Shown here one piece after another: positions 21,441 to 25,569 of a DNA stretch of 53,999 nt. The position numbers and the translations under genes are program-made. The stretch's first letter is position 1. Every line of letters begins with the position of its first letter. This DNA is from Clostridiaceae bacterium (GTDB lineage Bacteria; Bacillota; Clostridia; DSM-8532): positions 1-53,999 of the forward strand of contig JAAYKJ010000271.1 in the NCBI GenBank assembly GCA_012522505.1, written 5' to 3'. Below the pieces are notes generated by a model. The model made no database searches. It was not told the origin of the DNA and saw nothing but the letters and a program-made list of their open reading frames with translations.

Positions 21441-22307
21441 CTATCTCCCCAAAAAGTTTTCCAGCTTCGGGAATACCCGGATGGCGTTGTGATAAAAAAC
21501 ATCCTCATGGTATTTCTCGGGTATCATATTCCGGACAAATTCAATGTACGGCTTTACGGGCGCCAGGGGCCAATCCGAGCCAAAGAGAAGTTTATCATAT
21601 CTTTCTTCATAAACGAGTGCCTGCATGAAGCGATCCATTACCAGCCTGTTGGTCTGGGCTTTTAGGATCCTTTGTCCACAGCCCACAATCAATCCGGACA
21701 GATCGGCATAGACATGATCGTTTTTCCCTATAATGGCTGCTGTATCCATTACCCAAGGTTCTCCCATGTGCGCGATGACAATGGGAAGCCTTGGGTACAT
21801 GACAGCCAACTGATCCACTTCAAGGGGATGAGAATACTTCAGGAAGTACCGATCCGAATACAGTGCTCCGCCGTGGATTACAACCGCCAATTGGTACTCC
21901 TCTGCCAAACGATATACGGGTTCATAGACCCTGTCATGAACATAATAAGGATAGTAGCCGGCATATATCTTTATTCCAACAGTTTCAGGCCGGGAAAGGA
22001 CAGCTTCGATCCTGTCCAATTCCCCGGTTCCTCCGCTTTCCAGCCTTACCGGATTTATTCCGGGACACAAGGCCATTCTTTCAGGCATATCGGTCAGATC
22101 CAACAGCATTGGATTGGGAGATGCTTTATCGGGAAAACCATTCGGACTTTGTTCGGTCAGGCCCATGCCGATAGCGGCTGTGATGCCGGCTTCTCCAAAC
22201 TCTTTCAGAAAACCTGCTTTGGAATAATCGACAAAAGATATAGCCTCGGCGGTTTGCTTAAAGCTTTCAATATTGGAAAAATGAATGTGCGTATCAATGA
22301 TCTTCAT
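21441..22307 (-). CDS. Metal-dependent amidohydrolase (Amidohydrolase_2 type)
   Basis: A 288-residue TIM-barrel hydrolase of the amidohydrolase_2 group. Metal and active-site candidates are DTHIHF at the N-terminus, HGGA near the middle, IVIAHMGEPW, and FGSDWP near the C-terminus, the typical order for this group. Members hydrolyse or decarboxylate diverse small molecules, so the substrate cannot be named. ATG 22307 follows AGGGGAGAGCGCA. The start overlaps the end of the upstream GNAT fusion gene by 14 bases, so both proteins are probably made together and act in one pathway. Confidence 0.85.
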   Translation of the reverse strand: MKIIDTHIHFSNIESFKQTAEAISFVDYSKAGFLKEFGEAGITAAIGMGLTEQSPNGFPDKASPNPMLLDLTDMPERMALCPGINPVRLESGGTGELDRIEAVLSRPETVGIKIYAGYYPYYVHDRVYEPVYRLAEEYQLAVVIHGGALYSDRYFLKYSHPLEVDQLAVMYPRLPIVIAHMGEPWVMDTAAIIGKNDHVYADLSGLIVGCGQRILKAQTNRLVMDRFMQALVYEERYDKLLFGSDWPLAPVKPYIEFVRNMIPEKYHEDVFYHNAIRVFPKLENFLGR

Positions 22308-25300
22308 TGCGCTCTCCCCTAAAATCGAACCGAATATTTTTCAGATCCCGAAAAAGGTCTGCATTCATGTATTCCTCTGTAAAGATTAGAAATACAGGCG
22401 GAACAGTAATGACGTCCCGATTTTTCAATTCGCGGCGTATTCCGGCAAACCCCATCAAGAGACTGTTATTTGTACCAGCTTCGAGCCACTGATTGTTGAT
22501 ATCGGTATAGACCATCAGCTTCTCTTTTCTGTTGGGGGAATGATACAAAATCGGCTCATCGGTTAAGACATAATTCTGACTTTTACCTGCCTTCATGCGC
22601 ACCCTGTCACCATCCATTGTGATTAGTTGCAGCTGATTGTTGAAAATATCGGGGTCTGCTTTGAAGAAAAGCGACCATTCAATATATTTCCATGGAATGT
22701 GGAGGCCTGTATTCTGATGAATGCGGTAAAAGCTGATAAGCAGGGGAACACCTGGTAAAGTCAGGTAATAAAAATCAAACGTCAACCCTTTATATCGTTC
22801 GTTTTTTTCAACAGCAACCGATACTTTGATTCCCTGCCAACGATTCCCCCAGTCATCCGCTAAGGAAACAAAAGCAGCTTCGCATCTTTCTTCCAGCATA
22901 GAAATCGGTGATATCCCTTCAAAATGCAAACAGATGCCACCAAACCATGGATTCCACCATGACTTCGTACTGGGGGTAGGGAAGGAGGAATCCAACCACT
23001 CGTTTCCGCTATACTGTAATGAAAATAGTGCATGATAAAAATCAGGGCTTGCTTTCATTGTCAGAAGGCCATTGTCCAGCCATAGCACTTTTTTCCCCGA
23101 AACAGATTCAGTTCCGGTATGAATGTCATTTTTGCCCTTGCGGAATATGGCCGTTTGAACATCCTTGATAAAGCTGTCGATTTCAACCTCAGCCATGACA
23201 ATATCCGGGTTGCGGCCTGAACCCTTAGACAATGAAAGCACAGGCTTGCTGCCCATATTGCGGTATTCGTTAAGAGTGACTTCGAAATCATCTCCCACAA
23301 AAGGATTACCGCCGTTAACTTCAATGGATGTATGCCCGCAAGCTTCCGGAACTTCCACGACATCCCGTTGGAGTGCGTAAGCTCTGAAATCTTGCCACCT
23401 GTCAAAAACACCTATGGCAAACGTTACAGGACTGGTGGCAACCTTACCACCGTAAGGAATTTTACCAAGGTTAAATTCGAAAAACATGCTCCAGTCATCG
23501 AACTTAATAAGCTGATCCGGTTCCCAGCAGATCCCTCGGTTTGTATATTTTCCACAGGCAAAAACCCAGTTCTCTGTGATTTTGCTGTTCTCCCAGAAGG
23601 AGGATGTCCATTCGGTATCTGCGCCGACATGAACAAATCGGTTCTCATAAGGGAGGACGCCCCGGAACAGAGGTTGAATGAAGGAATCGCTTAACCATAC
23701 CTCCTGACTGGTTTCAGTCTCAGAAAGGTTTTCGACCTCGTAATAACGCTTGATGATACCGCTTGCTTCAAGGCGGGTAATGACAAAAAGCCTGAGCCCG
23801 GGGAAATCATTTAGCGTGTATGTAGCCTTCATTACCGCAGCATCATCATCACGGGAGCATTCTATATGATCCGCCTTTCTGTCCGCCAGCTCTGAAGAGA
23901 AAGGGTGTCCGATCTTTGGAAATACCCAAACCGGATTGAATTTGTCCGAATATATCCGTCTTGACCACATCCAGTTATCCTGCTTGTTCAGATGGAGCAT
24001 GAAGGGGCCGTTGAAAATTTCACAGAAATCTTCGCTTTCACCCCATAAGATTCCGTTTCTTCCCCGAAAAGCCTTGTCGAGACGCTTGCTGAAGGAGATC
24101 ACCGCGCCATCGGCCAGTTTGGCCTTTACGTTGAGAACTTCCGAATAGAACAGGTACTGGTTGAGAATATAGGGGATATCAACTGTAGTTCTCTCTCCAG
24201 GTTTCAAAGAGATGGAATGCGTTGGTTCAAGGAAATGAATTCCATGCCTGTCCTGTAGTGAGAAGGCAAAAACCGCAGTTTCCCTGAATTTGTTTTCCAA
24301 ATCCAGAATGCAAAGAGCTTCCTTATTCAGATAGCATTGATGTCCGGGCACGTGCAGCGTAATGCTGGCAGGATATACCGGAAGTACGCCTGTTTTGAAA
24401 ACCGCCTTGCGCCCGTTAATGAAAACCTCGGTTACTACACCCGGATGGGTGCGGCCAGGCTTTTGATCTTCGGTTACTTCACCCAGGTGAAACCGGCCTG
24501 TAATGGATTCGGTATCGGTAACCTCTGCCGAATGCTGCAGCGAATAAGTGATGTTTTTATCATTCCTGCCATATAGCTCCACCTTCAGCGGTCTCCCGGT
24601 TTTATTGATGATGCTGTAGGTGATGCTGTAATCCCTGCCGAATACCAACTCATGGTTTTCTATCACAGCGGAGATCAGGTAATCATCGGTTTCAATCAGC
24701 CGCATGCCCCTGCCGGTCCGTTCAAATTCGACACGAAGGTTTTTCCCGGAATGCTCCCAATTGTATTCAAAGTAATCAAATCCGTTTTCCTTTCTACCAT
24801 CGGGTTTGACTTCGATCTCTCTTTTTGAGTCTTCATACCAGTCTGCTTCACTGAAGAAATCCTGAATGGCTTCGGTTTTCAATACGGAGGGCATGTAATT
24901 CATCAAATGTGTGGTATCTTCGCGTTTTTCCCAGAAGAAACCGCACTTTTTATACAGGGGAACTGCCTTTGTGTTGCCCGGCCAGGTATACAAATCCAGC
25001 CGTGGCCAATCAAGCTCCATTGTTCTTTTCACGCACGCCAGGACAAGCATTTTACCGACTTTTTTTCCATGGTAATCTGGGCGTACATTCAACGTATTGA
25101 TATAGAGTGCACCTTCATCCTGGGTATATTTATCCAGACTGCAGTATCCGATGACTTCATCCTGGCTGTTTATGGCCAGGAATACATTCAGGTGATAGGC
25201 ATTGCTGTGTTCACTAATAATCTTTTCAGCTGTTCTGCTGGTATTCATGCCGTTCCAGCCTTCTGCACTCTTGTTCCACATGTCTGCAACCTTCTCCGCG

Positions 25301-25338
25301 AGGGAATGGCTGTATTCCACTATTCTTATCTCTTGCAT
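22294..25338 (-). CDS. GNAT acetyltransferase fused to a large beta-sandwich domain protein
   Basis: A 1014-residue two-part protein. Residues 1 to about 160 form a GNAT acetyltransferase with the acetyl-CoA binding stretch VRPDYHGKKVGKML and the closing segment AVPLYKKCGFFWEKRE. The remaining 850 residues contain no motif I can assign; they are beta-rich, with many Trp and aromatic residues and segments (FPTPSTKSWWNPWFGG, LTLPGVPLLISFYRI) that recall carbohydrate-active or mutarotase-like sandwich domains. No signal peptide is present, so the whole protein is cytoplasmic. ATG 25338 follows GGAGGTGCC; an upstream ATG at 25353 would lie before that site. It overlaps the amidohydrolase gene by 14 bases. 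A composite activity on sugars is a guess only. Confidence 0.75.
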   Translation of the reverse strand: MQEIRIVEYSHSLAEKVADMWNKSAEGWNGMNTSRTAEKIISEHSNAYHLNVFLAINSQDEVIGYCSLDKYTQDEGALYINTLNVRPDYHGKKVGKMLVLACVKRTMELDWPRLDLYTWPGNTKAVPLYKKCGFFWEKREDTTHLMNYMPSVLKTEAIQDFFSEADWYEDSKREIEVKPDGRKENGFDYFEYNWEHSGKNLRVEFERTGRGMRLIETDDYLISAVIENHELVFGRDYSITYSIINKTGRPLKVELYGRNDKNITYSLQHSAEVTDTESITGRFHLGEVTEDQKPGRTHPGVVTEVFINGRKAVFKTGVLPVYPASITLHVPGHQCYLNKEALCILDLENKFRETAVFAFSLQDRHGIHFLEPTHSISLKPGERTTVDIPYILNQYLFYSEVLNVKAKLADGAVISFSKRLDKAFRGRNGILWGESEDFCEIFNGPFMLHLNKQDNWMWSRRIYSDKFNPVWVFPKIGHPFSSELADRKADHIECSRDDDAAVMKATYTLNDFPGLRLFVITRLEASGIIKRYYEVENLSETETSQEVWLSDSFIQPLFRGVLPYENRFVHVGADTEWTSSFWENSKITENWVFACGKYTNRGICWEPDQLIKFDDWSMFFEFNLGKIPYGGKVATSPVTFAIGVFDRWQDFRAYALQRDVVEVPEACGHTSIEVNGGNPFVGDDFEVTLNEYRNMGSKPVLSLSKGSGRNPDIVMAEVEIDSFIKDVQTAIFRKGKNDIHTGTESVSGKKVLWLDNGLLTMKASPDFYHALFSLQYSGNEWLDSSFPTPSTKSWWNPWFGGICLHFEGISPISMLEERCEAAFVSLADDWGNRWQGIKVSVAVEKNERYKGLTFDFYYLTLPGVPLLISFYRIHQNTGLHIPWKYIEWSLFFKADPDIFNNQLQLITMDGDRVRMKAGKSQNYVLTDEPILYHSPNRKEKLMVYTDINNQWLEAGTNNSLLMGFAGIRRELKNRDVITVPPVFLIFTEEYMNADLFRDLKNIRFDFRGERNEDH

Positions 25339-25569
25339 GTGGCACCTCCGCATAAAACCCTTGTTATTTTTCGAAATCTCCGATTTCGGTAACGGGTTAG
25401 GTTATTATATCATGCCAAAAATTTGATGCCAAGAGAAAAACTAGTTATAAAGCGTTTTCTACACTACCATTGTTTCTTCGTACTCTTTATATTACAATAC
25501 AATTGCAAACAAATATTGGTTTTGCCAAATGCGCCCTAAGGCCGGGCCCGAAGAAGAATGGAGGAAATT

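Follow-up and report, generated by a model that had tools for sequence, protein, structure and literature searches.

The window, a 53,999-nucleotide stretch of DNA from a Clostridiaceae bacterium (NCBI GenBank assembly GCA_012522505.1, contig JAAYKJ010000271.1), carries two overlapping genes on the minus strand, which encode a 1014-residue protein with an N-terminal GNAT acetyltransferase domain and a 288-residue amidohydrolase. The larger gene runs from an ATG at 25338 to a TGA at 22294–22296; the first-pass annotation had placed it correctly, leaving its strand unstated. The features of the locus are as follows.

25404..25432, minus strand: candidate sigma-70 promoter with extended -10, TTGGCA-17-TATAAT (11/12 match, promoter scan)
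25372..25388, minus strand: perfect 7-bp inverted repeat CGAAATC-gga-GATTTCG, between the promoter and the start codon
25344..25350, minus strand: ribosome-binding site CGGAGGT of the large gene, a good match upstream of the ATG at 25338
22294..25338, minus strand: coding region of the 1014-aa GNAT-supersandwich protein, including its stop codon (open reading frame; full-length relatives)
24844..25338, minus strand: GNAT N-acetyltransferase domain, residues 1–165 (PF00583, E = 2e-14; identity; model)
24058..24843, minus strand: all-beta segment, residues 166–427, probably Ig-like sandwiches (predicted strands; sub-threshold FixG_C match)
22297..24057, minus strand: galactose-mutarotase-like supersandwich region, residues 428–1014 (AlphaFold2; Foldseek against the PDB)
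23389..24057, minus strand: putative first supersandwich, residues 428–650, ~17 strands (boundary estimated from the strand count of the model)
23068..23361, minus strand: putative seven-strand Ig-like insert between the sandwiches, residues 660–757 (secondary structure of the model)
22309..23067, minus strand: putative second supersandwich with the motif WWNPWFGG, residues 758–1010 (boundary estimated from the strand count)
22314..22320, minus strand: ribosome-binding site AGGGGAG of the amidohydrolase gene, inside the end of the large gene (sequence)
22294..22307, minus strand: 14-base overlap between the end of the large gene and the start of the amidohydrolase gene (ATG at 22307)
21441..22307, minus strand: 288-aa Amidohydro_2 partner gene (PF04909; putative metal-ligand set)

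The promoter-like site ends 66 bases upstream of the start of the large gene and was the top site of the scan, yet the total number of sites equalled the mean of shuffled sequences. The inverted repeat could possibly serve as an operator or leader hairpin. Starting at 25353 instead, 15 bases further upstream, would give a 1019-aa product, and this alternative start has no visible ribosome-binding site. The 14-base overlap with the amidohydrolase gene was found as previously described, and the amidohydrolase is probably made from the same transcript as the large protein; its gene ends ~40 bases from a convergent clpB. No second copy of either gene turned up in the same genome. Because full-length relatives of the large protein, with 32–44% identity over ~1000 residues, occur across many Bacillota, the large open reading frame is not a product of chance.

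The N-terminal GNAT domain was readily confirmed, with PF00583 matching residues 49–134 at 54.3 bits against a Pfam gathering cut-off of 20.7. It is also conserved better than any other part of the protein, with 52–64% identity to full-length relatives versus 25–37% after residue ~430, which suggests strong constraint on the GNAT active site. The motif TW..N..AVP.YKK.GF.W stays unchanged even in the most distant relatives of the alignment, and the tyrosine of YKK.GF.W is usually the general acid in GNAT enzymes. Motif A reads H90-G-K-K-V-G95, in contrast to the canonical R/Q-x-x-G-x-G/A; across relatives, G91 and G95 are invariant, position 1 is H or Q in most, and position 4 is mostly K (G in L087). 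A conserved loop, MWN.S...W.G (residues 20–30), is placed where GNAT enzymes usually bind their acceptor. When the whole protein was searched by sequence against the PDB, it matched GNAT structures only, and weakly (best E = 8.5e-4), including streptothricin and spermidine acetyltransferases, both small-molecule GNATs. In the structure model the protein begins directly with the first GNAT strand, consistent with a cytoplasmic location.

The remaining ~850 residues, previously described as matching no nameable family, proved empty in all sequence searches: residues 166–1014 gave no Pfam or NCBIfam match above cut-off and no PDB sequence match. Scanning residues 428–1014 of 35 relatives singly against Pfam produced only stray single-member matches, and a profile built from the same 35 relatives found no convincing solved structure. 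The FixG_C matches in the region of residues 166–427 (E = 0.07 and 0.028) were both below cut-off. Structure prediction and fold search, proposed in the first-pass annotation as a check, led to a recognisable fold for residues 428–1014, with no known family emerging. The AlphaFold2 model of this region, based on 35 sequences, was confident (pLDDT 92.4, pTM 0.83), and Foldseek against the PDB returned galactose-mutarotase-like supersandwiches (TMt up to 0.57, ~10% identity). Among its best matches were B. subtilis GalM, Salmonella YeaD, GH36 alpha-galactosidases, GH38, LacZ, cyclic glucan synthase, a Parabacteroides TPR protein and the YidC periplasmic domain; parts of PL26 lyase have this fold as well. 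The predicted model thus has supersandwich topology. The fold was assigned from this model and not from that of the full-length protein (pTM 0.57), which we set aside after its fold search gave mixed multi-domain matches (TM ~0.15).

Given the ~10% identity and a blank hhalign comparison of the C-terminal region with GalM relatives (probability <1%), kinship to GalM is at the level of fold only. PF01263, the aldose 1-epimerase family, matched none of the 35 members, and their alignment over residues 428–1014 contains no invariant or nearly invariant histidine, counted by sequence column rather than structural position. The earlier suggestion of a mutarotase-like domain therefore stands for the fold, and fails for the mutarotase sequence family and its conserved histidines; since these histidines are missing, the supersandwich is more likely a module that holds or shapes a ligand than a mutarotase. 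The strand count of the model suggests a pair of supersandwiches flanking an Ig-like domain; duplication of the two sandwiches was unsupported at the sequence level (hhalign probability 5–8%).

We then considered how constant this fusion is across the phylum. A full-length profile detected the protein in 25 of 398 genomes (17 of 267 genera), and a profile of residues 428–1014, blind to the GNAT domain, found the identical 25 genomes, always in open reading frames of at least 1012 aa. The fusion thus looks obligate, and the C-terminal module was never seen apart from a GNAT domain among the 398 genomes. One apparent GNAT-less version (G027) was rejected, as its contig stops within the gene and the end of a different contig matches the GNAT start. 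More remote versions of the same overall size are present in G249, G305, G045 and G092; those in G045 (L089:8680-11844) and G092 (L090:8792-12235) are very remote, each a GNAT domain with ~900 further residues (18% and 16% overall identity), and they share a gene order that includes a FecCD-type transport gene. Several loci depart from the standard arrangement. In G350 the large gene occurs twice in tandem (1027 and 1022 aa), ahead of a single amidohydrolase (L085:6965-13533). Fictibacillus nanhaiensis DSM 23009 has an in-frame stop in the large gene (L031:4971-8087), which is open in close relatives, next to an intact amidohydrolase. In G002, from the same genus as our genome, roughly residues 241–970 are lost and the GNAT part soon reaches a stop, again beside an intact amidohydrolase (L092:3913-4761); a real deletion and an assembly fault are indistinguishable here. 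A mobile or viral origin was rejected, with a relative in one of 72,556 plasmid records and no viral relative found, as was a defence system, neither protein matching any PADLOC model.

The amidohydrolase matches PF04909 (Amidohydro_2) over its whole length (E = 4.8e-30; 105.8 bits against a gathering score of 26.4), with no NCBIfam match above cut-off; the nearest solved structure is 3irs (BB4693), for which no function is stated. Residues H7, H9, H145, H180 and D245 are invariant in 19 sequences and, by their position in the sequence, are putative metal ligands. With these residues kept in the amidohydrolase and the YKK.GF.W motif kept in the GNAT domain, both look catalytically competent.

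A survey of gene linkage, also proposed earlier as a check, showed the pair to be conserved in relatives, though not universally. In GTDB family f49, 85 of 199 genomes contain the large protein and the same 85 contain the amidohydrolase; the two are adjacent on one strand in 85/85, with profile matches 20–129 bases apart and no orphan of either gene at the thresholds used. These 85 genomes are related, so the chance figure computed for their adjacency is no true probability. All 13 Fictibacillus and Neobacillus loci likewise have the amidohydrolase as the next gene downstream in the same orientation, as do 10 of the 25 carriers in the phylum sample (our genome included) and G001, G002, G011 and G027. 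In G190, the closest relative outside the genus by path in both protein trees, the two genes lie ~22 kb apart in one genome (L067, L128); the amidohydrolase there is preceded by genes for a carbon-nitrogen hydrolase and a nitroreductase. Twelve of the 25 carriers lack an amidohydrolase of this kind, family f36 has the large protein without it, family f78 has at most a remote amidohydrolase elsewhere in the genome, and related amidohydrolases also occur alone in other genomes. The two genes are therefore not strictly interdependent, and each protein can probably act without the other. The two outcomes that would have counted against the original reading, a known family with an unrelated role and an unconserved pair, did not materialise.

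Genes around the pair vary between lineages, which marks it as a self-contained two-gene cassette. No constant third operon gene was found across the loci compared; thiO-like, PTS and membrane-protein neighbours each turned up only once, and the neighbours of lone amidohydrolases are mixed (CN-hydrolase, nitroreductase, DegV, nucleoside phosphorylase). In G011 the next gene, 31 bp beyond the pair, encodes an aldose 1-epimerase family protein (L091:14009-14920); this arrangement, seen once, hints at sugars.

Each part of the system resembles something known. The GNAT domain agrees with its superfamily in its Pfam match, its C-terminal YKK.GF.W motif and its predicted beta/alpha fold, but differs in part of its motif A, its weak similarity to PDB sequences and the 850-residue all-beta extension present in every relative seen. 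The C-terminal region shares the fold of GalM (4bze/3mwx), YeaD (2htb), the GH36 N-domain and LacZ domain 5, with Foldseek E-values of ~2e-6 to 1e-5 and TMt of 0.54–0.57 for GalM and YeaD; unlike these proteins, it shows no Pfam or profile-profile similarity and probably comprises two sandwiches plus Ig-like domains. The partner resembles cog2159-type hydrolases and decarboxylases such as 3irs in its whole-length match and its invariant HxH, His, His and Asp, but is set apart by being genetically linked, in many genomes, with the GNAT protein. Human O-GlcNAcase (GH84 plus a GNAT-like domain; PMC3919268) also combines a GNAT fold and a carbohydrate enzyme within a single chain, although its sugar module and domain order are different, and the likeness is meant as an analogy only. 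Literature searches combining GNAT with mutarotase, amidohydrolase or fusion returned nothing on such an architecture. The parts are thus of known kinds, while their permanent union and the tightly linked hydrolase are undescribed in the literature searched.

Since the fusion gene frequently has the same hydrolase gene next to it, the pair probably performs an undiscovered two-step reaction. Our working interpretation, which is plausible but which we hold only tentatively, is a two-gene cytoplasmic cassette in which a GNAT-supersandwich acyltransferase and a metal-dependent hydrolase act on linked, carbohydrate-type chemistry. We infer a scheme in which both proteins would probably be soluble: in the first, whose GNAT acyltransferase domain is permanently joined to a module of Ig-like and mutarotase-like folds, the supersandwich would hold a carbohydrate-type or otherwise bulky small molecule, and the GNAT domain would move an acetyl group from acetyl-CoA onto an amine of the held molecule; the second, a metal-dependent Amidohydro_2 TIM-barrel hydrolase, would then open an amide, lactone or C-C bond in that molecule or in the product formed from it. 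Such a pathway may salvage or detoxify an amino-sugar-like metabolite. Against a sugar role, the supersandwich fold is also found in proteins not known to bind sugar, such as the YidC periplasmic domain.

That same YidC match lends some weight to a different reading, in which the target of the GNAT domain is a protein or peptide and the beta module, with no sugar ligand, provides a scaffold for recognition or assembly; the amidohydrolase would then have a metabolite of its own as substrate or be a structural partner. Supersandwich and Ig-like folds do serve as protein-contact modules, the mutarotase histidines are absent, and 12 sample genomes encode the large protein without the hydrolase. 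However, the unbroken adjacency in f49 argues that the large protein is linked through its chemistry to a small-molecule hydrolase, and RimI-type profiles score the GNAT domain weakly, far below cut-off, so that we consider a protein modifier unlikely. The supersandwich might instead be a second catalytic domain (an isomerase, a lyase or glycosidase-like) whose product the GNAT domain modifies, given that GalM, YeaD-type epimerases and parts of PL26 lyase share its fold and that the C-terminal region has long conserved Trp/Asn/Gly/Pro motifs. The missing conserved histidine, the absence from the model of a helical-barrel or TIM catalytic partner domain, and a conservation lower than that of the GNAT domain make this decidedly improbable.

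In a detoxification or resistance cassette, the GNAT domain would N-acetylate a toxic natural product that bears an amino group, such as an amino-sugar antibiotic, with the hydrolase destroying the toxin. This would fit the patchy distribution (25/398 genomes), the changing surroundings, the large genomes among the carriers and the streptothricin and spermidine acetyltransferases among the weak PDB matches, but resistance acetyltransferase models gave no match above cut-off, the gene is almost absent from plasmids, PADLOC and viral searches were negative, and the pair is stable within one family; we therefore regard it as rather doubtful.

It is possible, though far from assured, that the protein represents a new enzyme family, in which the GNAT acyltransferase works only with its attached tandem supersandwich presenting a carbohydrate substrate and the amidohydrolase is its dedicated partner in a Bacillota pathway yet to be described.

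The sole annotated record we saw, for the plasmid-borne relative, is named only 'GNAT family N-acetyltransferase', a name that covers the GNAT domain and leaves 850 residues of a widespread enzyme unnamed. The protein offers a clear example of an acetyltransferase combined with a sugar-enzyme fold, and the fusion together with its 85/85 pairing provides a concrete, testable gene pair that could reveal a new metabolic step.
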